Part shown: piece after piece, positions 1 to 46,640 of the stretch
Layout of the letters: each line of letters begins with the position of its first letter
Position numbering within the stretch: the first letter of the stretch is position 1
IMG/VR virus record: IMGVR_UViG_3300037488_001759
Location: 1-46,649 of that record
Strand: one strand, 5' to 3'
Length of the DNA stretch: 46,649 bases
Origin: a virus
The notes under the pieces: model-generated
The model's input: the letters and a program-made list of their open reading frames with translations, nothing else
The model's database searches: none
What the model was told of the DNA's origin: nothing
Translations under genes and position numbers: made by a program

Positions 1-2023
1 TTGCTTGTGCGTTAATCTCTTGCGGATTAATTTGTTGTACGTCAGATAGCACTGGGTATTGTTGATGTTGTTGGATAAGTTGACGGCGAATCTGTTCTTC
101 AGACATGTTTGGTTCTTCTGCGTTTGCATTGCTAGCTCCAAAATTTGCTACAAAATTTAAAACATCTTCTCTAATTTCGGGGTTAGCGGCAGTAATTGCG
201 GAAAGCCTGTTTAATTGTTTTGGAAGCTCTTTTGGTGTTGTTTGAGCGGTAACGGCTAACCAATTAATAAATTTAGGGTTTGTCATTAAGTTTGCAGCAA
301 TCCTTCCTCCGCCAATTGCAGGAATTAAACTAACTACACCACTAGAAAAACCAATACTCCCCAAACCGACCATTTGTAGCATTTGATTTGACTTTCCTGC
401 TTGCTCGGTGTTTTTAGTTAGTTCAACAACTTTATTTAAGCGGTTATATGCAGTAACTTGTTCAGGTGTGAAAATTGCTTTTTCTGTGCCATTCTTTTTA
501 AGAACAGAATATTCAGCCATGAATTTTTGAGGGCTAAATAAATCAGCCTCTGCACCTTGCGCGCCTTTTTGAGCTAAACCTAAATCCTTAACAAATGTAG
601 CTCTCAAAAAATCTTTTTGAGGCTCTTTTAAAGATTTCATTATTTCGGAAATTCTTGTTCCCCCCGATTTAACATTGCGAGTAGCTAAAGAATATACTTG
701 TTCTGGCAGTTTTGCGTCAATTAAAGGCTGAAGAGTATCATTAATAAATGTTTTTTGATTAGCGTAAACTCTATTGGCAGCATTGAATAATTTAAGAGCA
801 GTTTCGCCTCCATTGATCCTAATAGATTCCTTCATATCTTTAGTCATATTATCATAAAGAGTTTCCATCTCCCTTCTTTCATCACCTATCATTGTAGCTT
901 TCTCTCTACGAATTTTACTGCGTAATTTGCGAATCCTCTCATAATTAGGGGTTGCATCTTCAGTAAGATTTTTAATAGTATCAACTGTATTCTGTAAAGT
1001 GCCGCCTTTCTTTATTGACATTGTATCTAGCAATCCAACATCTTCATTTATATATTTTAGGGTAGAATTAAGAGGAGTGTCAGCTCTATTTCCTATTCTA
1101 TTCCCAAGCTCTCCATAAAGACCTTCTATAGCGTCTTCTGTTTTTCTTACATAATTTTCAGCTCCTTTCTTAATGATAGCTCCAGCTTTTTCATAAGTTC
1201 CACCTTGTGATTTAGTAACCCCTTGAATTTGCCCAGAAATATCATTTACCTGCTTTTGCAAAGCTTCTGTAATTGGTTTGCCAGCAACAGGAATATCTTT
1301 AATAAAGTTTTGCAAGCCAGCAGATTTAGAAACATCTGCAAGAGTTGGATCAATACCTAAATCTTGAAATGTCTTTACTGCTTTTGGATCAATTCCGGTT
1401 ATTTTTTGCAATAGTTTTTTAGGAGCTTGAGAAATTGCACCAACGGCACTTTGAGCGACGGGGATTGCTTGCTGAACAGCTCCACCTACTACACCGCCAG
1501 CAACAGCTCCTTTTGCAACATCTTCTAAAGTTTGCGGGATATTTGTTAAATCCTCAGTTTCACCTAAAGCACTTGTGGCACCTAATAAAGCACCGCCTTC
1601 CACGGCAGTTCCAAAACCTTGTCCAGCTAAACCAGCAGCACCCAATGCTTTGCCAGCAATACCAACATCAGAAAATACTTGTCCCGCAAAAGAAGTTAAA
1701 GGACGATCTTGTCTAGCTTTTTCTAGTTTAGCTCTTTCAGAAGTTCTTGCTTCTCTGTAAAGGTCGCCAATATCAATGTTTTGAGTAGCAGCTCCACCAA
1801 ATAATTTAGCAACACCAGCGGAAATTCCTGCTTTTATTTCATCGCCGAATCCTAGGGGGTTGGTTGCAGTTGTAAAGGCAGCTTCACCCATTGACATTTC
1901 TGGTTGGCTTTGGTCTTTAATTAAACCTCTTCTAACAGCTTCGTCATACAAAGGCTTTTTATCGGCTGGTAAAATACCTCTACGATTGGCTTCCTGTATA
2001 AGTTCTAACTGATTTGGTTTCAT
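1..2023 (-). CDS. Ejection (DNA-transfer) protein, allele A, 3' end cut by window edge
   Basis: This ORF starts at the ATG at 2023 (protein begins MKPNQLELIQEANR) and runs off the window start without a stop, giving 674 codons. If position 1 joins 42950, the frame continues to the stop of the fibre-proximal gene and the protein would be 684 residues. Its last visible residues (from NAEEPNMSEEQIRRQ onward) match the C-terminus of the 825-residue protein at 42919-45396; the rest is unrelated by eye. It has Gly/Ala-rich hydrophobic stretches near residues 70-130 and long charged helical stretches, as expected of podovirus proteins expelled with the DNA. The start overlaps the upstream stop (ATGA). 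The ejection role is inferred from position and composition. Confidence 0.6.
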   Translation of the reverse strand, partial: MKPNQLELIQEANRRGILPADKKPLYDEAVRRGLIKDQSQPEMSMGEAAFTTATNPLGFGDEIKAGISAGVAKLFGGAATQNIDIGDLYREARTSERAKLEKARQDRPLTSFAGQVFSDVGIAGKALGAAGLAGQGFGTAVEGGALLGATSALGETEDLTNIPQTLEDVAKGAVAGGVVGGAVQQAIPVAQSAVGAISQAPKKLLQKITGIDPKAVKTFQDLGIDPTLADVSKSAGLQNFIKDIPVAGKPITEALQKQVNDISGQIQGVTKSQGGTYEKAGAIIKKGAENYVRKTEDAIEGLYGELGNRIGNRADTPLNSTLKYINEDVGLLDTMSIKKGGTLQNTVDTIKNLTEDATPNYERIRKLRSKIRREKATMIGDERREMETLYDNMTKDMKESIRINGGETALKLFNAANRVYANQKTFINDTLQPLIDAKLPEQVYSLATRNVKSGGTRISEIMKSLKEPQKDFLRATFVKDLGLAQKGAQGAEADLFSPQKFMAEYSVLKKNGTEKAIFTPEQVTAYNRLNKVVELTKNTEQAGKSNQMLQMVGLGSIGFSSGVVSLIPAIGGGRIAANLMTNPKFINWLAVTAQTTPKELPKQLNRLSAITAANPEIREDVLNFVANFGASNANAEEPNMSEEQIRRQLIQQHQQYPVLSDVQQINPQEINAQA

Positions 2024-3180
2024 TCTGCACCCCCCATTAAAGACTTAATAATGTCTTCATTTGACATATCTTTAACTGAATCAAATAAGGTCTGTTTTTT
2101 AAAATTAACTCCTCTGACATTATATGGATCCATAGCTTCTTGTACTGCAGAAAATTCTTTATTTAATTGATTTAATTTATATTTTACCAATTCTTCTTCG
2201 TCACCAAATCTAGGCATTAATTTTAAAAATCTTTTTTCTTCAGCTTTATTAATAGCTCCACCAGAACGCATACGCCCAACTAAATCGGATAAATTTTGTT
2301 TTCTTGTTTCAAAAAACTGGGCATCTTCACTAGCTATAAAATTTGGTAAGATTGAGCCAGCAGCAGCTCTTCCAAATTTACCGTGTTGAAAACCACCTGT
2401 TTTAGGATCAAAAAATTGGTCTTTTAATTGAGCGGCGACATCTAAACCACCTTGCGCGAGACTAATAACTTTTGCAGATTCTTGGGAAAGCGGTTTATTT
2501 CTATCTGCTAAATTTTGTCCTGTGCTTTGTTGATAAGATTTATACGCTGTAGGAGTTAGCCCTAGCTCAGACATATTTTTTCTTTCTTGTTCAGCAAGAG
2601 ATAATTCAATTTCACCCTTGCGGAGGTCTTGCTTACCTTTTTGAATATCAAGGCCATATTTAGCTTGTTGGAAGCCTTCAGTTTTAATCTGAGACGATTG
2701 ATATTGTTCTTTAAGGTCTTGTTCTCTACCTTTTAAGCGAGAAGAAAGGCGTTTAAATTCTAAGATTGCTTCTGGTGATTTATCGGAAGGAAGCGGCAAT
2801 TCTTTTCCAGTTGCTTTAAAATATTCATTGTGCATTTGTTCCCATTTCTTTTGGGAAAAAGCATATTGTGGCATTGAAGAATAAGAATCCAAAATTCTTG
2901 CACCTTGAACATCATTGTAATCTTGTTGCTTTCTAATTCCTTCGGCACGAGTAGGATTTAATCCAGCAAGTCTTTGAAGAGCGTTTTGGTCGCCAGTTGA
3001 AGCTGTTTCTGATAAAATATTTTCAGCTTGAGCTTGTGCAAATTTTGCTTTATTAATATCCATCTCTTGTTGAGCAGCAAGAAGCTGTAACTGGTTAGCT
3101 TTTGCTTGCTGTCCAAACTGATAGCCTTTAAAAATATTGCCGGCAAGGTCTGGGGCTTGTTGCTGAATTAATTCTGGCAT
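2020..3180 (-). CDS. Ejection-module protein, allele A (386 aa)
   Basis: The first ~159 residues (MPELIQQQAPDLAGNIF...) are nearly identical to the 415-residue protein at 45393-46640. The remaining ~227 residues are different. The conserved part is Gln/Ala-rich and helical, with long coiled stretches. The gene lies between a p32-like DNA-transfer protein (upstream on the minus strand) and a large ejection-protein candidate (downstream, ATGA overlap), so a role in the ejected inner-core complex is likely. Only one nucleotide separates its start from the upstream stop, suggesting translational coupling. I recognise no enzymatic motif. Confidence 0.6.
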   Translation of the reverse strand: MPELIQQQAPDLAGNIFKGYQFGQQAKANQLQLLAAQQEMDINKAKFAQAQAENILSETASTGDQNALQRLAGLNPTRAEGIRKQQDYNDVQGARILDSYSSMPQYAFSQKKWEQMHNEYFKATGKELPLPSDKSPEAILEFKRLSSRLKGREQDLKEQYQSSQIKTEGFQQAKYGLDIQKGKQDLRKGEIELSLAEQERKNMSELGLTPTAYKSYQQSTGQNLADRNKPLSQESAKVISLAQGGLDVAAQLKDQFFDPKTGGFQHGKFGRAAAGSILPNFIASEDAQFFETRKQNLSDLVGRMRSGGAINKAEEKRFLKLMPRFGDEEELVKYKLNQLNKEFSAVQEAMDPYNVRGVNFKKQTLFDSVKDMSNEDIIKSLMGGAE

Positions 3181-16731: not shown

Positions 16732-17292
16732 ATGAAAACACTAAAAACTTTTTTAGAAAAACATGACGCTTGCACGGACGGCTTCGAATTTGCAAAAAAC
16801 TTAACACTTGAACAATTTCTAAAAACCTGCCCGCGCGGCGATTGGATTCTGTGGTTGTTTGTAAGAACAAATCCCGATTCATTAAAAGAGCTGACACTAG
16901 CAAAAGCACATTGCGCAAACACGGTGAGGCACTTAATGACTGACAAAAGAAGTCTAAAAGCTGTTGATGTAGCTCTGGCTTTCGGTGGGGGCAAAGCAAC
17001 GCGTGAAGAATTGGCTGATGCTTATGCTGCTGCCGCTGCTCCTGCTACTGCTGCTTATGCTGCTTATGCTGCTTCTGATGCTGCTTATGCTGCTGCTGCT
17101 GCTGCTGCTGCTGCTTATGCTGCTTCTGATGCTTCTGATGCTGCTGCTTATGCTGCTGCCGCTGCTGCTTCTGCTGCTTATGCTGCTTCTGCTGCTGCTT
17201 CTGATGCTGCTAGAAAACAAAACCGGAAACAAACATCTGACATATGCCGTAAATTTCTACCGATTGAAATTTGGGATCAATCGAAATTTTAA
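16732..17292 (+). CDS. Alanine-repeat protein with conserved N-terminal domain
   Basis: Residues 1-95 form a compact region (DGFEFAKNLTLEQFLKTCPR, then GDWILWLFVR, then LTLAKAHCANTVRHL) that I associate with a family often labelled putative immunity protein. Residues ~95-162 are an Ala tract broken by Tyr, Ser and Asp in short repeats (AAYAASDA). A basic tail (RKQNRKQTSDICRKFLPIEI) follows. The Ala region is encoded almost entirely by GCT codons and is likely to vary in length. Function unknown. Confidence 0.5.
   Translation: MKTLKTFLEKHDACTDGFEFAKNLTLEQFLKTCPRGDWILWLFVRTNPDSLKELTLAKAHCANTVRHLMTDKRSLKAVDVALAFGGGKATREELADAYAAAAAPATAAYAAYAASDAAYAAAAAAAAAYAASDASDAAAYAAAAAASAAYAASAAASDAARKQNRKQTSDICRKFLPIEIWDQSKF
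17014..17214 (+). repeat. GCT-rich trinucleotide repeat tract
   Basis: About 200 bases consist mainly of GCT with interspersed TAT, TCT and GAT codons. They form imperfect hexamer and nonamer repeats such as GCTGCTTATGCT and GCTTCTGATGCT. All three forward frames, and some reverse frames, stay open here as a consequence. Confidence 0.85.
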
Positions 17293-17885: not shown

Positions 17886-18110
17886 ATGAAAACAACACAA
17901 GAACAAACAAAAGAACTGACAAAAGAACAAAGAGAAATAAAAGAAAAAATTGAGCTTCTTTTAAAAAATGGTGTAGAAATGGATGAAATAGCCGCTGAAT
18001 TAAAAGTAAGCAAAGGCACTCTTTATCATGAAAAAGGTGTTTTTGCCCGATTTGGAATTCCTTTGCGAGGAAAAAAAGGCCAATCAGGTCGTAAATTCAA
18101 AATTTGCTAA
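17886..18110 (+). CDS. Small helix-turn-helix protein (74 aa)
   Basis: Residues ~32-50 (EMDEIAAELKVSKGTLYHE) fit a helix-turn-helix. A charged N-terminal helix precedes it and a basic tail (LRGKKGQSGRKFKI) follows. It is the clearest DNA-binding regulator candidate in the early unit. Target and role are not evident; it could control the early promoters. Confidence 0.5.
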   Translation: MKTTQEQTKELTKEQREIKEKIELLLKNGVEMDEIAAELKVSKGTLYHEKGVFARFGIPLRGKKGQSGRKFKIC

Positions 18111-18111
18111 C

Positions 18112-18576
18112 ATGACAAAAACAAACAAAATTGAAAATTTTTGGAGCGGAAACTTAATTTGTGAGGATGCTACTTTAGAAATCAGACAATTGTTAAAAAA
18201 AGAAAAAGCTAACTTGATTGGTGCTAATTTGCGTCGACTTAAATTGCCTCGCATGGTTTTGCGAGGTGCTAATTTAATTGGCGCTAATTTGCGCGGCGCA
18301 CGGTTGCGAAGTTGCGATTTAAGCCACTCTAATTTGATCGGTGCTAATTTGCGCGGCGCTGATCTGAGCGGTGCTAACTTAAGCAATTGTAACTTAGTTG
18401 GTGCTAATTTGCGCGGCGCGCGGTTATGGGGCGCTAATCTGAGCGGTGCTGACTTGCAAGGCGCTGATCTGAAAGGTGCTAACTTGAACGGTGCTAACTT
18501 GTTCGGCGCTAATTTAGACGGCGTTAAAAAAAGCGAATCGCAGAATTTTGCAAAAACTGTTAATCTTAAAAACTAA
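18112..18576 (+). CDS. Pentapeptide-repeat protein (154 aa)
   Basis: The start at 18112 (MTKTNKIENFW) is chosen because it follows the previous stop by one base. A longer version starting at 18028 would overlap the HTH gene. From residue ~35 the protein is a run of A(N/D)LxG-type pentapeptides (ANLIG, ANLRG, ADLSG), predicted to fold as a right-handed quadrilateral beta-helix that can mimic DNA shape. Some family members (MfpA, Qnr) protect DNA gyrase; no such role can be concluded here. The 15-bp DNA units are strongly repetitive. Confidence 0.8.
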   Translation: MTKTNKIENFWSGNLICEDATLEIRQLLKKEKANLIGANLRRLKLPRMVLRGANLIGANLRGARLRSCDLSHSNLIGANLRGADLSGANLSNCNLVGANLRGARLWGANLSGADLQGADLKGANLNGANLFGANLDGVKKSESQNFAKTVNLKN

Positions 18577-19411: not shown

Positions 19412-19448
19412 CTTTGCATTTGAACAGCTAGCAAATATTGATTTTTTT

Positions 19449-19741
19449 GGGTCGGGGAGAGTTGAAGCTCCCCGATTCGCTTTTGTGAGGATGTCTTAGG
19501 AAGAAAGACGTTCTCACTGAGTCGAATAGTCTAAGGACGGCCAAACTCGCTTATTGGGTAAAATCCACAGAGTGGCAAAGTAGAGGAGAAATCAGGACTG
19601 CGTAGCGGGTGAGATTTCAACCTCCGGCTGTAACGGGGAAAGTGATGTGGAGAGCCTTCCTTTCCCCGTTACTAAATAACAGACGCTTGAAATATTCAAG
19701 TGCAGCCGCTCCTTCACTGCTTGCATAAGGGCGGCTTTTTT
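19449..19741 (+). ncRNA. Candidate structured small RNA (~293 nt)
   Basis: No convincing gene is present, but hairpins are dense. TCGGGGAG/CTCCCCGA spans 19452-19475. GTGAG/CTCAC with inner GTCTT/AAGAC spans 19485-19517. GAGG+GAAATC/GATTTC+CCTC spans 19583-19624. A perfect 12-bp stem pairs 19631-19642 with 19660-19671. CTTGAA/TTCAAG spans 19686-19700, and a terminator follows. A weak promoter (TTGCAT 19414, TATTGA 19436) would start the RNA at the first hairpin. At least five GGA motifs are in loops or linkers (19489, 19499, 19535, 19595, 19649). The RNA may instead be the 3' part of the early mRNA. No known RNA family recognised. Confidence 0.45.
19704..19741 (+). terminator. Rho-independent terminator
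   Basis: AGCCGC (19704-19709) pairs with GCGGCT (19731-19736), and CCTT (19711-19714) with AAGG (19727-19730), with one bulged T. A run of six T follows directly. It ends the first early segment or the candidate small RNA. Confidence 0.75.
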
Positions 19742-19905
19742 AACTCTTTATGTATAGAAAAGCGCAGAAATGCGTTTCGAGAATAGACGAGAGGGATAAC
19801 TCGAATAAAAAAAGGCTTAAGTTTTCAAGTATAGAAAACTAGCTTTTTCTATCAATGACAGTCATCTCACTTATAGAAAATTAAGGTTTTCTGTAAATAT
19901 CCTAA
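19742..19905. promoter_or_regulatory. Dyad-rich segment upstream of promoter P3
   Basis: Three copies of TATAGAAAA (19753, 19830, 19872) lie here. The second can pair backward (AGTTTTC 19820-19826 with GAAAACT 19834-19840) or forward (ATAGAAAA 19831-19838 with TTTTCTAT 19845-19852), but not both. The third forms a similar hairpin (19874-19893). A CGCA-GAAA-TGCG hairpin (19763-19774) and a palindrome ATGACAGTCAT (19855-19865) are also present. These may be operator sites for promoter P3 or an RNA attenuator. Confidence 0.35.
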
Positions 19906-19933
19906 TTGTCAGAGCAAGGCTTTGGGGTATAGT
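19906..19933 (+). promoter_or_regulatory. Sigma70-type promoter P3
   Basis: TTGTCA (19906-19911), a 16-base spacer and TATAGT (19928-19933) form a good promoter reading into the long leader of the diiron-oxidase-like gene. The -10 box is identical to that of P1. Confidence 0.55.
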
Positions 19934-19939
19934 CAGCCT

Positions 19940-20266
19940 GGCTAAAGAAGAAGGCACAACTTACATCCGCGTAAATCAAAGAAGAAACCCTTGCCGTAGC
20001 CTCTGTAAGAAGCAATGAGGGCAGGGAATTCCCTTCAATGTAGCTGGCAGCTCGGAAAGACGGCAAATTACTTCTCTACCTAGCGTAGAAGGAGCTTCTG
20101 AGTTCGTCCAAAAGGCGTCCTCAGCAAAATAAATTACTTGACTCTTAGAAATAGGAATTGAGGGTGTAGAAAAGTTAAAAGCTAGGGGACGAGCCTTTTA
20201 ATTTAGAAAATTCTTTTATGGTCTGGAATAGTCCCCTGTTCCAGGCCACCAAATCTGCAAGGGGAC
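19940..20266 (+). promoter_or_regulatory. Long structured leader with alternative SD pairing
   Basis: About 327 nt separate the P3 start from the ATG at 20267. Visible elements are CCCT/AGGG and CCTC/GAGG pairings (19988-20026), a palindrome AGGGAATTCCCT (20023-20034) and CTGAG/CTCAG (20098-20124). A 9-bp stem (20220-20228 with 20239-20247) has the loop TAGTCCCCTG. The loop segment GTCCCCT (20231-20237) is perfectly complementary to AGGGGAC at 20184-20190 and again at 20260-20266, the second abutting the ATG. This looks like a translational switch; no known riboswitch class recognised. Confidence 0.5.
20144..20167 (+). repeat. 24-bp direct repeat, left copy
   Basis: The sequence CTTAGAAATAGGAATTGAGG plus GTGT matches 20868-20891 at 22 of 24 positions. 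The two copies flank the leader end and the diiron-oxidase-like gene, 724 bases apart. Confidence 0.75.
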
Positions 20267-20872
20267 ATGATGAGCAAAAACCAAACAAAAAAACAAATAG
20301 AAGAATCAATAGCCGGTTACAAATCCGAGTTATCAGAAATCTTTGAATCAATTAATGATTTCAGAGTTTTCAAAGCCAACTTTCTTGAGAGAACTAAAAA
20401 AACTTCTCTCACAGTGTTGAATGTTTTAAGAAAAACCAGCAACAAAAGCGCTCAAAAATTTTTGATTCAAAATCTTGAAGAAGAAATGGGCCTCGGCTTT
20501 CCAAAGTCTCATTTAGAACTGCTCCAGGATGCAATTGGAAGCGTTGATTGTTCTGAAATCACCGAAGGCACAAGGCAATATCTGCAAAGAAAGGATTACA
20601 TTTTCAAACGCGCTTGGTTTGATGAGATTGTTGGCGATTTTATTGCTCACGAATTAGTCGCGTCTGATATGTTGCAGCGGATTAAAGACAAATTCGGAAA
20701 CAAATTTCAATCACAAATTTATTTTGATATTCATCTTAACGGAACTGAAGACAGGCACGGCGAAGACGCGTTAAAATTACTCAAACTTACGTCAGATTCG
20801 AATCAGGTTTTGGTTGGAGTCAGTGGCTTTCTTTCAAGCCAATTAAACTTTTTTAAATCTCTTGCTTCTTAG
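20267..20872 (+). CDS. Heme-oxygenase-like diiron oxidase (PqqC/CADD-like) candidate
   Basis: This 201-residue all-helical protein resembles the TENA/PqqC/CADD superfamily of heme-oxygenase-like diiron enzymes. Candidate ligands are Glu71-73 and His82 (NLEEEMGLGFPKSHLELL), Glu129 (FIAHEL), and His156, Glu161/Asp162 and His164 (YFDIHLNGTEDRHGEDALKL). The usual H-x3-D-x2-H spacing is lengthened by one here, so the metal site is not certain. CADD-type proteins make p-aminobenzoate from their own Tyr; other members oxidise small acids or amines. The gene has its own promoter, a switch-like leader, an AAGGGG ribosome-binding site and flanking direct repeats. Confidence 0.5.
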   Translation: MMSKNQTKKQIEESIAGYKSELSEIFESINDFRVFKANFLERTKKTSLTVLNVLRKTSNKSAQKFLIQNLEEEMGLGFPKSHLELLQDAIGSVDCSEITEGTRQYLQRKDYIFKRAWFDEIVGDFIAHELVASDMLQRIKDKFGNKFQSQIYFDIHLNGTEDRHGEDALKLLKLTSDSNQVLVGVSGFLSSQLNFFKSLAS

Positions 20873-20919
20873 AAATAGGGGTTGAGGGTGTTAGAAGAGA
20901 TTAACAAGAGATTAACAAG
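20868..20919 (+). repeat. Right copy of 24-bp repeat plus 11-bp tandem
   Basis: CTTAGAAATAGGGGTTGAGG plus GTGT (20868-20891) is the second copy of the 24-bp repeat; it includes the stop codon of the preceding gene. It is followed by two tandem copies of AGATTAACAAG (20898-20908 and 20909-20919) just before the next gene. Confidence 0.75.
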
Positions 20920-21137: not shown

Positions 21138-21711
21138 CCGCCCTTCGTTTTTACTTTATAAATCATTTTACGCTCCAATAAAGCATTTAAAAGATGAAGA
21201 GCTTGGAATGCTTTTTCGCGTACTTTTTGAGTATCAAGACGGCTTAGAAGTTAAAAACTTACCTCCGCAAATAGGCATGGCTTTTGCCTTTTTTAAGAAT
21301 CAATTTGATCTTGATGAGCAAAAATATCAAATCACTGTAGACCGTAACAAGTCAAACGGCTCTAAGGGTGGAAGGCCTAAAAAAGAGGAAACCCAAGCTA
21401 ACCCAGAAAACCCAGTGGGTTTTTTAGAACCCAGAAAAGCCGAAAAAGAAAAAGAAAAAGAAATAGAGAAAGATAAAAGAAAAAGATTTACCCCCCCAAC
21501 TCTCCAAGATATTCAAAACTACTGCAAAGAAAGAAATAACTCAGTCAATCCTGACAAGTGGTTAAACTTTTACCAAAGCAACGGTTGGAAAGTTGGAAAG
21601 AACTCGATGAAAGACTGGAAGGCTGCCGTAAGAACTTGGGAAGGAAGCAGTTTCGATAAAAAGCAAGAACCAACCACCGCTTTTAACCCGTCACAATGGA
21701 GTAAATACTAA
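21118..21711 (+). CDS. Probable replication initiator/helicase loader (DUF6291-type)
   Basis: Residues 1-80 (FLLYKSFYAPIKHLKDEELG, then LFRVLFEYQDG, then MAFAFFKNQFDLDEQKY) and the following GGRPKK linker match a phage family I recall as DUF6291. The C-terminal region (FTPPTLQDIQNYCKERNNSV, then WLNFYQSNGWKVGKNSMKDW) resembles the DnaD/primosome-type C-terminus of phage replisome organisers. It would recruit the DnaB helicase to the origin. The stop overlaps the dnaB start, a typical loader-helicase arrangement. Confidence 0.6.
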   Translation: MRITTNNRPSFLLYKSFYAPIKHLKDEELGMLFRVLFEYQDGLEVKNLPPQIGMAFAFFKNQFDLDEQKYQITVDRNKSNGSKGGRPKKEETQANPENPVGFLEPRKAEKEKEKEIEKDKRKRFTPPTLQDIQNYCKERNNSVNPDKWLNFYQSNGWKVGKNSMKDWKAAVRTWEGSSFDKKQEPTTAFNPSQWSKY

Positions 21712-29742: not shown

Positions 29743-30597
29743 ATGTTGTCAGTAATTATCGGAAGATTTCAAACGCCACATTTGCACGAAGGCCATCAAG
29801 AACTTATTAGAGCAGCTAACAATTTTTCGAAAAATGTTTTAGTTTTAATCGGATGCACGGCTGCTATCGGGACAGATAAAAACCCGCTAGACTTTGAAAC
29901 AAGGAAAAAGATTTTTGAAAATAAAATGCTTTGCGAAATTAAGCCATTACATGATATGGTTTCAGATTCTGATTGGTCGGATCAAATTGACAAAATTATC
30001 GATGATCTAGGTTTTAAGGAAGCAACTATTTTTGGCGGCAAAGATAATTCGATTAAAGGTTATTATGACGGCAAACATAGAATAAAAATAATCAATGATA
30101 TTGGAATACATTCAGCTACTGCCTTAAGAAAAGCAATCGGCATGTCTAATCCCAAATCATCAGAAGATTTTAGAGCTGGAATTATTTATGCAGCAGAGAA
30201 TCGCTATCCGATTGTTTATTCAACAGTCGATGTAATTGTTAAAAATGATAATAAATATTTAGTCGGTAAAAAAGGTGATAAATATTGCTTTGTTGGTGGT
30301 TTTGTTGATCCGTCAGACAATACTTTACAAGCGGCGGCAATTCGCGAATTAAAAGAAGAAACTGGAATTACTGATTTTGGAGATATTGATTATTGCGGAT
30401 CGATTAAAATTGATGATGTTCGATACAAAGAAACAAAAGACTCAATTATGACTCACTGTTTTTTAGTAAGAAACGCAAGAGATTTGGAGAATGAAATTCA
30501 AGACAAAGAGTTTAAAGATTTTGTTTGGGCAACTAGAGAAGAACTTGAAGAATTGTTACACAATTTTCACAAACCTTTATTAACTTTTATTTCTTAA
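29743..30597 (+). CDS. nadM: Bifunctional NMN adenylyltransferase/Nudix hydrolase
   Basis: Residues 1-~150 form a nucleotidylyltransferase domain: GRFQTPHLHEGH (7-18, with the HxGH signature HEGH at 15-18), FGGKDNS, and the late motif HSATALR at 123-129. It makes NAD+ from NMN and ATP. Residues ~160-284 form a Nudix domain with GGFVDPSD and RELKEETGI at 201-209. The Glu cluster is intact, but the first Glu of the box is replaced by Asp and spacing is one residue longer. The order matches NadM-type bifunctional enzymes. It pairs with the NAMPT gene four bases downstream. Confidence 0.85.
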   Translation: MLSVIIGRFQTPHLHEGHQELIRAANNFSKNVLVLIGCTAAIGTDKNPLDFETRKKIFENKMLCEIKPLHDMVSDSDWSDQIDKIIDDLGFKEATIFGGKDNSIKGYYDGKHRIKIINDIGIHSATALRKAIGMSNPKSSEDFRAGIIYAAENRYPIVYSTVDVIVKNDNKYLVGKKGDKYCFVGGFVDPSDNTLQAAAIRELKEETGITDFGDIDYCGSIKIDDVRYKETKDSIMTHCFLVRNARDLENEIQDKEFKDFVWATREELEELLHNFHKPLLTFIS

Positions 30598-30600
30598 TTT

Positions 30601-31878
30601 ATGAAAAACTTAATTAACCTTTCGGACAGCTACAAATTTTCTCATTTTAACCAATACCCAAAAGGCACTGAAATCATCCATTCTTACCTTGCGCCGCGTG
30701 GTGGTGAATATGAGAAGGTTGTTATGCACGGATTGCCTTATATTTTAAAAGAATATTTATCTAAACCAAATCTTTGGGCGAATACAGTTTCTGAATCAGA
30801 ACAATTAGCAAAAGCTCACGGCGTTCCTTTTAATAGGGAAGGTTGGGAATATGTTGAAAAACTTCGTTACTTACCAATTGAAATCAAAGCTCTTCCCGAA
30901 GGCACTATTGTTGGCAATAAAGAACCTCTCCTAACCATAGAAAATACTGATCCAAATTGCGCTTGGCTTGTAGGCTATCTTGAAACTCTTTTGCTAAAAA
31001 TTTGGTACCCAGTAACTGTCGCAAGCAAATCTTACCATGTGCGCCAGATACTTGAAAGATTTTGGAAACCGACTGGAAGTATTGCTGGCGTAGATTTTGC
31101 TTACCATAACTTTGGCGATCGCGGATCATCAAGCGTTGAATCAGCAGCAATTGGCGGCGTAGCTCACTTAACTCAATTTAAAGGAACAGATAATTTTAAT
31201 GCTCTAACACTGTCAAATGAATATTACGACGGAAAATACCAAGGGTATTCAATTCCAGCTTCTGAACATTCAACAGTGACATCTTGGGGCCAAGAAAACG
31301 AATTTGAAATGATCAAGGCTTATCTTAAATCTTATAAAAATTCGTCATTTGGACTTATTGCTTGTGTTTTAGATTCTTACAATATTTGGAAAGCTACTGA
31401 TTTTGTAACTAGTGGCGAAATGAAAGCAAAAATTGAATCTGCTGATTATCCAATTTTTGTAATCCGCCCTGACTCTGGCGTTCCTGAAGTTGTCATCGAA
31501 AAAATTTTAGGGATTATGGCTAATAATGAAGTGGCTTACGAAATTAATCTAAACAATAACAAGAAAGTTTTTAAAAAATACCGCATTATTTGGGGAGATG
31601 GAATCACACCTCAAACAATTGCAAAAATCTTAACCCTCGGCAATTCTCTTGGTTACTCACCAGAAAACTTTGCTTTTGGTTCGGGTGGCGATTTAATGCA
31701 AAACGTAAATCGCGATACTTGTAAATTTGCAATGAAATGTAGCGCTATTAAAGTAAATGGCGAGTGGCGTGATGTTTATAAAGATCCAATCACCGACCAA
31801 GGAAAAGCTTCAATTCGAGGAAAAGTTGAAGATTCAAGATTTGTCACCGTGTTTAAGAACGGCGAGATTTTAATTTAA
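30601..31878 (+). CDS. nadV: Nicotinamide phosphoribosyltransferase (NAMPT/NadV)
   Basis: This 425-residue protein begins with LSDSYKFSHFNQYPKGTEII and contains FAYHNFGDRGSSSVESAAIG at ~166-185. The active-site segment SIPASEHST has the catalytic His at 223. VLDSYNIWKA, FVIRPDSGVP, IIWGDGI and AFGSGGDLMQ follow. These are all hallmarks of NAMPT. It makes NMN from nicotinamide and PRPP. With the preceding NMN adenylyltransferase it completes a two-step route from nicotinamide to NAD+, the pathway described in phages as NARP2. The C-terminus is slightly shorter than in animal NAMPT. Confidence 0.92.
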   Translation: MKNLINLSDSYKFSHFNQYPKGTEIIHSYLAPRGGEYEKVVMHGLPYILKEYLSKPNLWANTVSESEQLAKAHGVPFNREGWEYVEKLRYLPIEIKALPEGTIVGNKEPLLTIENTDPNCAWLVGYLETLLLKIWYPVTVASKSYHVRQILERFWKPTGSIAGVDFAYHNFGDRGSSSVESAAIGGVAHLTQFKGTDNFNALTLSNEYYDGKYQGYSIPASEHSTVTSWGQENEFEMIKAYLKSYKNSSFGLIACVLDSYNIWKATDFVTSGEMKAKIESADYPIFVIRPDSGVPEVVIEKILGIMANNEVAYEINLNNNKKVFKKYRIIWGDGITPQTIAKILTLGNSLGYSPENFAFGSGGDLMQNVNRDTCKFAMKCSAIKVNGEWRDVYKDPITDQGKASIRGKVEDSRFVTVFKNGEILI

Positions 31879-42918: not shown

Positions 42919-45396
42919 TTAATCTTTGTAATAGCGTTGTTTAATTTGTTTTGCTTGTGCGTTAATCTCTTGCGGATTAATTTGTTGTACGTCAGATAGC
43001 ACTGGGTATTGTTGATGTTGTTGGATAAGTTGACGGCGAATCTGTTCTTCAGACATGTTTGGTTCTTCTGCGTTTGCGTCAGAAATTAAAGATAAATTTC
43101 CTGAACCACCTTTTGAATTTGTTAAAGTAGTTAAAAAACCAGATTGTAGGTAAATTTGAGTCATTAAATTATCAACATCAACCTTTTTGGTAGTTTTGGC
43201 TAATTGTTGAAATAACTGCCTTCCTTCGTCTGTAAAAGCATATTTAACCATTGTTTCAGCCTGCTTAACGTCAACAGATTTAACGCTTCTTCCTGTTATG
43301 CCTTCTTGCAGCATCAAATTAGAGCTTATCTTCTTAGACAAAGGATCAATAAACACCCTGCCGGCTGCACGAGGAACGGCTTTAATACCTTTTCCTAGTA
43401 TATTTTCCCCTTGTGCAATTGATTCAGTAAGAGGCGCAGATTTAATATCTTGATCTAAAGCTCGTTTTAAGGCGTCTTGGACTGGTTTAGTTTTTTCAAT
43501 GTAAGTTAAAGCCTTAGAGAATCCTTCATAAGTCTTAGAAGAAGGAAACATTGCTTTTAATTTAGCGGCTTCTTGAGGATTTTTTACTAGGCTGGCAAGA
43601 GTTTGGTTTTCTCTTAAGGTTGAAATTTTCTGATCTACAAAAGATTTAACTGCGCTAGAATATTTTTCTGGACTAATTGCAATTAGTTGAGATTTAACTT
43701 TTGAGATTTCAGTTGGACTTAGTCTGTAAAGTTTATTCATCGCGTCCGCACCTTTATCGCTTTGCAAATTAGCAATGATTCCTTTTGTGCCTTTCTGTGC
43801 CTTCATCAACTCTTCTAAATCTGCGCTGTAGGTATTCCGAGCGTCTTTGTAGCCAGGCAAGCCATCATCTAAAAATTGCAGAATATCGCTTCTTTTAGCC
43901 ATCAAAGAAGCCTCATCGGCATCTATAATAAGTTTATCAAGATTGCCCGAATTTCTTCTTAAATAACTTTGTAAATTATGCAAAACAACAGGATGATTAT
44001 CTGGCATTGAATTAGTAGCTTTTCTAAAAAACTTACTAGCACTTGTGCCTTCTGCGTTAATAGCCGCCTGTCTGCTTTTAGTTAATGCCTGCTTAATATC
44101 GGGACGAGATAAAACATTCTGCAAAACAATTTCATCGCCTTCGGAATTAATAAATTTAGAATTTAAAGGAATTATTTCTGAAGGCGATCTAAGTTCTTCT
44201 TTGAATCCTTTTGCTTGTTGCAATAATTCTTGTCGTTTTGATAATGGTAATTTTTCATCGATAATTGCTTGCTCAACAATGCTAAAGGCTTTGTCATACA
44301 TTGGCTTTGCAGTTGTCTGCATTTTATTTTTTAAGCCTTCTAAATATTGATTAGATATTTGACCTAAAGCATTTTCATCAGGAGTAATTCCTTGTAAGAC
44401 GCTATTTTGAGCTTTAATAATTCTTTGTTCCCTAACATCAAAAGAATTTTGTAAAATCTTTCTTGAAGCAGCAATTTGCGCTAAATCTTGAATATTACTT
44501 ATATTTGATTTGCTTACGTCAATTGGGTCTAAACCAATTCCAGCATCACCTTTTAACTCAGCATCAATTTCTTGCGGGCTGATTCCTTTAGTTTCTAAAT
44601 CTTTGATTGTTTGGTTGGCAACTTTAGCTCTGCCAAATAAATTAGTTTGAGCTTCTGGTAAAGTGCTTTTAATGCGCCAGTTTTTAAGATTCACAGGAAT
44701 ATTTGCGGCTTTAGTACCGGCAACGCCTCCCAAAACACCAGCACCTAACCCAACTCCAATATTTGCAACATCTCTTAGTTTGCTATCAGAAGCGACATTT
44801 AAAACATCTAAACCTTGTTGAGTAGCTGCTTGTGCAACTGGCATAGCTGTTGAAGCAACTGCCAATCCAGCGGCTTGTTGACCAGTTTCTACACCAAATG
44901 CTTTACCTGCAGCTTGCGCAATCTTCCCGCCACCTTTTGCAGCCAATGTAGCACCTTTACCGAATATCCCACCACCAGTAAATAACTCTCCAGCGGTATC
45001 GACTAATTGTTCTGTTGTGTTGCGAGGTGCTGCAAATCCGCCAGTTGCTTTGTCAAACAATAGTTTAATTTGATCTGAAGCTAAAGGAACGCCTAAAGCC
45101 ATATTAACTGGATCAGCTATTGAAGCTATTCCAGATAGTCCTGTTCTAGTAACGCGAGCGGCTGGTCTAAGAAGATTTTCAAGTAATTTATTTCTTACAG
45201 CTTCCATTTTATCTACTGGAGCTGGAGGAGTATCTTGAGTAGCTTGTGGCTGTGATTCTTGTGATCCATATTCTAACCAAGGAGCATTCTGATCTTGAGG
45301 AACAGAAACATTTTGAGCGTCAGTTTGAGGAAGCACCTGCTGCTTTTGAGAAATTTGTGGCTCGGCTGGTTGCTGATATTCTTCCCAAGGGTTCAT
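42919..45396 (-). CDS. Ejection (DNA-transfer) protein, allele B (825 aa)
   Basis: The N-terminus is Gln/Pro-rich (MNPWEEYQQPAEPQISQKQQ). Hydrophobic Gly/Ala-rich segments cover ~90-235 (IGVGLGAGVLGGVAGTKAA). Then a long helical part (~250-750) ends in AEEPNMSEEQIRRQLIQQHQ. The last ~45 residues equal those of the allele A protein at 1-2023. Such large helical proteins with amphipathic segments are typical of the ejected inner core of podoviruses. No lytic transglycosylase motif was seen. It overlaps its upstream neighbour by 4 bases. Confidence 0.6.
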   Translation of the reverse strand: MNPWEEYQQPAEPQISQKQQVLPQTDAQNVSVPQDQNAPWLEYGSQESQPQATQDTPPAPVDKMEAVRNKLLENLLRPAARVTRTGLSGIASIADPVNMALGVPLASDQIKLLFDKATGGFAAPRNTTEQLVDTAGELFTGGGIFGKGATLAAKGGGKIAQAAGKAFGVETGQQAAGLAVASTAMPVAQAATQQGLDVLNVASDSKLRDVANIGVGLGAGVLGGVAGTKAANIPVNLKNWRIKSTLPEAQTNLFGRAKVANQTIKDLETKGISPQEIDAELKGDAGIGLDPIDVSKSNISNIQDLAQIAASRKILQNSFDVREQRIIKAQNSVLQGITPDENALGQISNQYLEGLKNKMQTTAKPMYDKAFSIVEQAIIDEKLPLSKRQELLQQAKGFKEELRSPSEIIPLNSKFINSEGDEIVLQNVLSRPDIKQALTKSRQAAINAEGTSASKFFRKATNSMPDNHPVVLHNLQSYLRRNSGNLDKLIIDADEASLMAKRSDILQFLDDGLPGYKDARNTYSADLEELMKAQKGTKGIIANLQSDKGADAMNKLYRLSPTEISKVKSQLIAISPEKYSSAVKSFVDQKISTLRENQTLASLVKNPQEAAKLKAMFPSSKTYEGFSKALTYIEKTKPVQDALKRALDQDIKSAPLTESIAQGENILGKGIKAVPRAAGRVFIDPLSKKISSNLMLQEGITGRSVKSVDVKQAETMVKYAFTDEGRQLFQQLAKTTKKVDVDNLMTQIYLQSGFLTTLTNSKGGSGNLSLISDANAEEPNMSEEQIRRQLIQQHQQYPVLSDVQQINPQEINAQAKQIKQRYYKD
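42951..43077. repeat. 127-bp exact repeat of window start (copy of 1-127)
   Basis: All 127 bases equal positions 1-127; base 43078 (G) versus 128 (A) is the first difference. It encodes the shared C-terminus of both ejection-protein alleles. 127 is a standard assembler k-mer length. Confidence 0.95.
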
Positions 45397-46640
45397 AATT
45401 TCCTCCAGCTATTTGGCGAAGCTGGATTACCACCTAAGAATTGAAAACCATTTTTAACCATTCCTACTTGAGGAGGAGCTTTAGGTGCGCTTTGGCTTTC
45501 TTCTGGAAACAAAGGTTTCGATGCTAAATCTTGCAATGCTGTTTCGATCTGATCTAAAGGTCTTTTTTCACCAGTCATTTTATTAACAAGTCTGCCGGCT
45601 TCCGCTGTTCTCATGTCCATCCTGCGCTGAGTATCAATAATCAACTTAGCACCTGAAACAGAATTTTGAGCGCTAAATACTCTTGATTGAGCAGCCGCCA
45701 AATCTGCCTCTGAAATAGCCGTACCCGCACCATATTGACCACTAGCTAAAATAGCTCCAGCTTGCTCTTTTGATAAAGCAATTAACTGTTCAATATTTGC
45801 TATTTTATTTTTATCTACTTTTACGCCTAATTGATTAGCGATATTCCCCAGCGAAGCCACTGAAGGCGTTAATTTGCCAGTATCACCAATTTGATCGAAT
45901 AATTGTTCAGCTCGGTTCAATTTAGCAATGTTACCGGCTGCGTTACGACTATTTTTCATTAAAGTGGAATATTCCTCCCCTCTATTTTTACCAAATTCTT
46001 TGTAAAAACTTGACTCTTCTTTATTGTCTATGTTCACAACGGAAGTTGGAGGCTTGACATAAACAGGAAGATTTTGGCCGCCTGTTTGAGCTGGTTTAAA
46101 TTCGCCAGTTTTTTTATCGAAAGTCATCAATCCGCGACCAGTTTCTTGAACGCTTAAATCTGTTTGCTCTTTCAATTCTTGCTCTCTTCCTTTTAAGCGA
46201 GAAGAAAGGCGTTTAAATTCTAGTATTGATTCAGGTGATTTATCGAAAGGAAGCGGCAATTCTTTTCCAGTTGCTTCGCGATATTCATTGTGCATTTGCT
46301 CCCATTTCTTTTGAGAAAAAGCATATTGTGGCATTGAAGAATAAGAATCCAAAACTCTTGCTCCTTGAACATCATTGTAATCTTGTTGCTTTCTAATTCC
46401 TTCGGCACGAGCAGGATTTAATCCAGCAAGTCTTTGAAGAGCGTTTTTGTCGCCAGTTGAAGCTGTTTCTGATAAAATATTTTCAGCTTGAGCTTGTGCA
46501 AATTTTGCTTTATTAATATCAAGCTCTTGTTGAGCAGCAAGAAGCTGTAGCTGGTTAGCTTTTGCTTGCTGTCCAAACTGATAGCCTTTAAAAATATTGC
46601 CGGCAAGGTCTGGGGCTTGTTGCTGAATTAATTCTGGCAT
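45393..46640 (-). CDS. Ejection-module protein, allele B (415 aa)
   Basis: The first ~159 residues are almost identical to the 386-residue allele A protein (2020-3180), with a few substitutions such as E for M at residue 40. After GREQELKEQ the sequences diverge. Allele B continues with VKPPTSVVNIDNKEESSFYK and a helical domain containing ASGQYGAGTAISEADLAAAQ, and ends in NGFQFLGGNPASPNSWRKL. It is the same position in the gene order as allele A. Role in the ejected complex is inferred. Confidence 0.6.
   Translation of the reverse strand: MPELIQQQAPDLAGNIFKGYQFGQQAKANQLQLLAAQQELDINKAKFAQAQAENILSETASTGDKNALQRLAGLNPARAEGIRKQQDYNDVQGARVLDSYSSMPQYAFSQKKWEQMHNEYREATGKELPLPFDKSPESILEFKRLSSRLKGREQELKEQTDLSVQETGRGLMTFDKKTGEFKPAQTGGQNLPVYVKPPTSVVNIDNKEESSFYKEFGKNRGEEYSTLMKNSRNAAGNIAKLNRAEQLFDQIGDTGKLTPSVASLGNIANQLGVKVDKNKIANIEQLIALSKEQAGAILASGQYGAGTAISEADLAAAQSRVFSAQNSVSGAKLIIDTQRRMDMRTAEAGRLVNKMTGEKRPLDQIETALQDLASKPLFPEESQSAPKAPPQVGMVKNGFQFLGGNPASPNSWRKL

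Follow-up and report, generated by a model that had tools for sequence, protein, structure and literature searches.

The leader in front of an open reading frame at 20267-20872 of a phage record raises the question of whether one loop, with two identical segments as its alternative partners, could control the start of translation. The window, i.e., the whole stretch of 46,649 nucleotides that was analysed, carries all parts of this leader on the plus strand, and re-reading of the sequence confirmed the positions of the stem, the loop and the segments given in the initial annotation. A hairpin (HP2, 20220-20247) is formed by GGTCTGGAA (20220-20228) paired with TTCCAGGCC (20239-20247), which gives 9 bp including one T-G, and its loop (20229-20238, TA-GTCCCCT-G) presents the segment GTCCCCT (X', 20231-20237). 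X' can pair with AGGGGAC at 20184-20190 (X5') or with a second AGGGGAC at 20260-20266 (X3'), which lies at the start codon and holds the sole Shine-Dalgarno-like bases. The upstream copy had been regarded as a competitor for the loop of HP2. This copy is kept among related leaders, but it is not a free segment, being exposed in the loop of another hairpin (HP1, 20172-20204; arms 20172-20183 and 20192-20204, C20194 bulged) in the minimum-energy fold given by RNAfold. Because the loop of HP1 holds the upstream segment in every family of leaders described below, the upstream interaction would be a kissing complex and not another simple pseudoknot.

HP1 and HP2 are separated by a U-rich linker (20205-20219) that ends in UAU and makes up, together with G20220, a conserved UAUG at the foot of HP2. 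Between HP2 and X3' lies a tail (20248-20259; ACCAAATCTGCA in the window, GCCAAACTACAA as consensus), which would be loop 3 of a pseudoknot. This tail is nearly invariant over six families (alignments A1 and A2) and the T-A-T-G at the foot of HP2 is invariant (alignment A2). Upstream of the leader, a repeat search revealed a promoter-like box (20136-20167, consensus TCTTGAYTCTTAGAAATAGGGGTTGAGAGTG), a second copy of which (20860-20891) precedes the next gene. The general plan, from 5' to 3', is the box, HP1 with the 7-nt segment X in its loop, the U-rich linker with UAU(G), HP2 with X', the tail, X again, 0-5 nt and the start codon, the whole element spanning about 95 nt of one leader. The gene of the window begins with ATGATG (20267-20272). 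Its start had been placed at 20267, where an ATG is indeed found, but translation more likely begins at the second ATG (20270) since AGGGG lies 5 nt from it, against 2 nt from the first, and the same AGGGG stands 5 nt before the ATG of the related leader L009. The encoded protein has 201 aa, or 200 aa from the second ATG.

Such an arrangement had been judged unlikely to arise by chance, and the counts agree with this. AGGGGAC and GTCCCCT are found only three times on both strands of the record, always in this leader. A scan for X followed by a hairpin with X' in its loop and by X again (k=7, stem of at least 8, X with at least 4 G/C) retrieved a single site in the window, namely this leader, and the same arrangement was found in none of 300 shuffled windows (dinucleotide model). 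The chance of finding X in the shuffled upstream region is 0.0015-0.026 per leader and that of an HP1 stem of such length around X5' is 0.01-0.06 per leader.

Pattern searches and scans based on the relatives of a neighbouring gene, all in uncultivated phages, led to 11 leaders with all three segments on nine phage contigs, window counted (the window, two in L001, L009, L010, L085, two in L100, L107, L108 and L136). In every one of them X5' lies in HP1, X' in HP2, a GCCAAACTACAA-like tail follows and X3' is found 0-5 nt before the ATG; both hairpins are present in the minimum-energy folds of all 11 (RNAfold). These leaders fall into six sequence families with five X 7-mers: AGGGGAC, AGTGCGG, GGTTCAC, AGGGCAC and GTAGGGC. 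The gene of the window has a sole close relative in IMG/VR, L001, which is 93% identical. Between these two, 2 of the 95 nt of the leader are changed, both outside the pairs, and 65 of the 606 nt of the gene. Directly after this gene, L001 carries its second leader (L001b), where one hairpin loop shows AGTGCGG, the following loop CCGCACT, and AGTGCGG returns before the ATG. L001 has the keys AGGGGAC and AGTGCGG, and L100 the keys AGGGGAC and GGTTCAC. A covariance model running from HP2 to X3' and built from the 11 leaders themselves recovers, in 0.89 Mb of loci, only its source leaders and a truncated twelfth one, L007 (E <=7e-9), and its best match in unrelated loci has an E of 0.007. Repeat arrays with three AGGGGAC (L073-L075, L093 and others) were set aside as they have neither the hairpin nor the tail layout.

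The central claim of the initial annotation, that one loop has two identical partner segments, including one at the start, is borne out by these relatives, as the complementarity is kept in the 11 leaders and six families despite changed letters; it thereby passes the comparison of homologous leaders that had been named as a possible refutation. Covariation was evaluated on one leader per family (window, L009, L001b, L100b, L107, L108), with blocks aligned by hand and one bulged HP1 base omitted in the window and in L001a. For HP1, 42 of 42 cells are paired, with two-sided changes in six of the seven pairs; for HP2, all 48 cells are paired and seven of the eight pairs are changed two-sidedly. 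X5' and X' are paired in 42/42 cells and X' and X3' in 41/42 (83/84 for both alternative helices together), each with two-sided changes at all seven positions, so that the three segments change together. The mismatch between X' and X3' in L108, like that in L136, counts against the switch. Permutation of partner strands between families gives P of 0.001-0.004, which is near the floor for six families. The duplex energies of the five X pairs range from -9.0 to -12.0 kcal/mol, while the two keys within a phage cross-pair at only -0.9 to -4.0 kcal/mol, as expected if every element pairs with itself only. Comparison of the leaders establishes that the three segments are complementary, that both hairpins exist, that tail and spacing are conserved and that the element recurs before different genes. 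It is extremely unlikely that a chance similarity arose in one leader and was passed to close relatives: four of the 11 leaders are near-identical (L009, L010, L085 and L100a), as such a history would have it, but six families, five X, two-sided changes at every position and the empty shuffles refute this reading already. Two further features were considered and rejected. An upstream ORF starting from UAUG, as a coupling device, shares the frame of the gene in only part of the families, which lends no support to a coding role. Some minimum-energy folds join GTGGT, at the end of the box, to ACTAC in the tail, a pairing that L010, L001b and L108 do not retain.

The same data bear on whether the element acts as RNA or as DNA. 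HP1 and HP2 stems contain nine G-U pairs, which point to this strand acting as RNA. Conversely, the kissing and pseudoknot helices are devoid of any G-U, which is stricter than RNA pairing needs and counts against the switch. This strictly Watson-Crick pairing of X, its direct-inverted-direct layout and the location of the element near replication genes (DnaB at 21711) would suit a DNA feature, in which a phage protein would bind the direct and inverted AGGGGAC, as at an operator or a replication origin, and the hairpins would either be fortuitous or arise in single-stranded DNA. We consider this very unlikely, since the three copies change their letters jointly and share no common recognition sequence, and since the G-U pairs of the stems, the constant tail and the fixed placement 0-5 nt before the start codons of different genes are poorly accounted for by it.

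The leader is probably, on balance, a cis-acting translational switch of a phage mRNA in which kissing is the on state and the pseudoknot the off state. In state A, the loops of HP1, which shows the 7-nt X, and of HP2, which shows its complement X', would kiss through seven Watson-Crick pairs, leaving X3', the second X before the start codon, free for translation. In state B, the loop of HP2 would pair with X3' to form an H-type pseudoknot with the conserved GCCAAACUACAA as loop 3, burying the start site and turning the gene off. The two states would be mutually exclusive because X' can pair only once. The pseudoknot would comprise a stem 1 of 8-10 bp, 1-3 nt, a stem 2 of 7 bp and a loop 3 of 12-15 nt. 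Such sizes are within the usual range of H-type pseudoknots. As stem 2 ends at most 5 nt from the start codon and covers AGG or AGGG in five of the six families, initiation should be blocked in state B. The kissing form should come first during transcription, being kinetically favoured because HP1 and HP2 are transcribed before X3'. A later takeover by the pseudoknot, favoured by its shorter connection, would by itself generate a timed pulse; alternatively, a protein or another factor reading the UAUG or GCCAAACUACAA parts would favour one state. Unless such a factor fixes one state, translation is predicted to come in a burst and then to stop. We infer from the arrangement of these parts that the element acts as RNA inside the cell, and likewise its direction, its timing and a possible trigger.

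Several observations count against this switch. In the isolated fold, part of X' is closed into the HP2 stem. AGG or AGGG is found near a usable Shine-Dalgarno spacing in five of the six families, but the X3' of L001b, AGTGCGG, is hardly a Shine-Dalgarno, and only 16 of the 44 ORFs of at least 120 aa of the window have a Shine-Dalgarno-like motif. Furthermore, the truncated L007 leader, a natural deletion copy (L007 4350-4520; L114 5092-5145, minus strand), retains HP1 and HP2 while X3' and the controlled gene are lost, its CGCCAAACT running directly into the leader of the next gene; the leader of that next gene carries no such element in the window and in L005.

The direction of the switch can also be read the other way round. 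In the IncI-alpha plasmid ColIb-P9, pseudoknot formation activates the translation of repZ. The pseudoknot is reported to be the molecular switch of repZ translation and to compete with an antisense RNA for one site (Asano & Mizobuchi 1998, as cited in PMC10724649). On this precedent, the same fold could work with opposite sign, the pairing of the HP2 loop with X3' being needed for translation and HP1 kissing turning the gene off. The conserved loop 3 fits this as well, for it suggests an important pseudoknot, though not necessarily a repressive one. Such a sign is nevertheless unlikely, as only 0-5 nt separate the end of X3' from the start codon in all families, which would put a 7-bp helix inside the ribosome footprint, and as five of the six families place AGG in X3'. 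The likeness with ColIb-P9 lies in one loop contested by a pseudoknot partner and a kissing loop, the outcome of which sets translation, while the kissing partner there is a separate antisense RNA, Inc, devoted to the control of plasmid copy number. In contrast, the competitor in the phage leaders would be a hairpin of the same leader with an identical copy of the start-site segment. The rep leaders of I-complex plasmids precede a plasmid rep gene and have a separate antisense RNAI encoded on the opposite strand; the genes downstream of the phage leaders vary and do not belong to one rep family.

A regulation in trans was also weighed, in which HP2 or HP1 and HP2 would be released as a small RNA repressing the gene on other messages, the upstream X being a decoy or a self-target. 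The c4 RNA provides a model of this kind, of which the leader would be a one-loop version: processing of a longer transcript releases c4, whose loops base-pair to targets located at the ribosome-binding site (PMC5320573). The c4 RNAs of P1 and P7 resemble the present leaders by their phage regulation through short loops pairing with start-site regions, and a difference of 4 nt between them changes specificity (PMC5320573). That each element within one phage has a distinct X also suits a regulation in trans. However, c4 acts in trans after processing and has three stem-loops, whereas two hairpins and one complementary loop are found here; the leaders lack the three stem-loops with a' and b' loops and gave no Rfam match to the c4 covariance model (RF01695). 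Furthermore, X' and X3' stand at most 30 nt apart on one RNA, which should let pairing in cis prevail, the leader shows no terminator-like T run between HP2 and the gene and no additional copy of X or X' was found in the window record. A trans-acting RNA appears distinctly unlikely for these reasons.

With regard to known cis-acting elements, the leader had been proposed to be unrecognised, and a search of Rfam release 15 gave no match in the window at the gathering threshold; the leader regions gave only sub-threshold matches at chance level (E up to 5). In the guanidine-II riboswitch (mini-ykkC), two hairpins of one leader kiss, as proposed here, which is thought to expose the Shine-Dalgarno; its loops have conserved guanidinium-binding ACGR motifs and a putative anti-Shine-Dalgarno lies in its linker (PMC9094411). 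The phage leaders differ by loops of 8-13 nt, by a freely varying 7-nt X and by an anti-start sequence that would be the HP2 loop itself; ACGR in both loops was not found in them, nor any Rfam match. Cobalamin riboswitches also govern access to the ribosome-binding site by a kissing loop, L5-L13 (PMC10907184). There, kissing hides the site and a large aptamer binds the ligand, whereas kissing is proposed to free the site in the phage leaders, in which no aptamer is evident; no Rfam match to the cobalamin aptamer core was obtained for the window or the leader regions.

Judged against the open-access literature, the new part seems to be the identical second copy of the start site, carried by a hairpin of the same leader. 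Competition between kissing and a pseudoknot is known from plasmid copy control, where it occurs in trans; here it would take place within one leader, with changeable 7-nt keys on a conserved scaffold. Different keys inside one phage suggest an evolved orthogonality. If it works as proposed, the element would offer phages a compact timer or switch, possibly one without a ligand, for their early and replication genes, and the covariation yields a directly testable model. More tentatively, and with somewhat less than an even chance, the leaders could represent a self-contained class of switches without fixed regulatory letters. In such a class, an upstream hairpin copy of the start-site sequence would compete by kissing for one loop, and phages would diversify the 7-nt key to avoid cross-talk among the switches of one genome and would set it ahead of early genes of unrelated kinds, perhaps for a timed burst of synthesis in which no ligand takes part.

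The genes found downstream of the element are diverse. The 201-aa protein of the window matches PF14518 with an E of 1.6e-6 and 28.5 bits, below the cut-off of 28.9. PF14518 corresponds to haem-oxygenase-like, iron-containing redox enzymes. No solved structure was matched by sequence and the AlphaFold model of this protein has a mean pLDDT of 39, with no usable fold. The same weak PF14518 protein follows L001a, whereas L001b precedes a DUF1376/primosomal-type protein, L100b a DnaD-like helicase loader, L108 and L136 PDDEXK-type nuclease-like proteins, L010, L085 and L107 117-aa proteins without assigned function and L009 and L100a 70-aa proteins without assigned function. The control of a diiron-oxidase-like gene, suggested initially, has that single sub-threshold Pfam match behind its label; since unrelated genes follow the element in other members, it is not tied to diiron chemistry. 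In the same way, iron, p-aminobenzoate or folates as ligands gain no support, as other members precede primosome or replication, nuclease-like and other genes. In the window, L001, L100 and L108, the downstream genes adjoin replication genes or are such genes. Joined to their differences, this suggests a control element that can be moved between the genes of this region.

Looking for the element elsewhere, a strict tail pattern gave 59 matches in 84,980 genomes of bacterial and archaeal species, none with the element. The covariance model retrieved nothing from 369 and 385 genomes of two classes, centred on a gammaproteobacterial and a Rickettsia-labelled MAG, a search that says little as it had no positive control. 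Among cultured phages, the L009 leader showed no real relative when compared by BLAST with 50,697 phage records.

The surroundings of the leader show other recurrent parts. Copies of the TCTTGAYTCTTAGAAATAGGGGTTGAGAGTG box also stand in related contigs, ahead of elements, of genes and of non-coding modules. It is possibly the early promoter of these phages, a role suggested by its position only, although it lacks a recognisable normal -10. Immediately 5' of the leader, a conserved non-coding block some 160 nt long (window 19903-20065; L110 12938-13101; L114 5228-5361; L121 4180-4335; L116 6775-6930) is 79-90% identical between phages. It has a likely covarying stem (CCTTGCC/GGCAGGG in place of CTTTATC/GATAAAG) and no Rfam match, and is probably a structured small RNA. 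More widely, an ORF-poor stretch (window 19412-20135; L001 4000-4870) contains shared modules that are reordered between related phages, such as a tRNA-Cys (L001 4096-4170) and a short GTGCCCCCGAACGA...GCGGGGGACAT hairpin block. This stretch looks like a region of exchangeable non-coding RNA cassettes.

Elsewhere in the window, two copies of one gene (2020-3180 and 45393-46640) are 93% identical over 300 nt, an exact repeat of 127 nt is found at 1-127 and 42951-43077, and the minus-strand structural genes at both ends of the record are partly duplicated. An alanine-rich low-complexity gene (16732-17292) lies close to a pentapeptide-repeat-like gene (18028-18576). Finally, a cytidylyltransferase/Nudix protein followed by a nicotinamide phosphoribosyltransferase (29743-31878) forms a phage NAD salvage pair.
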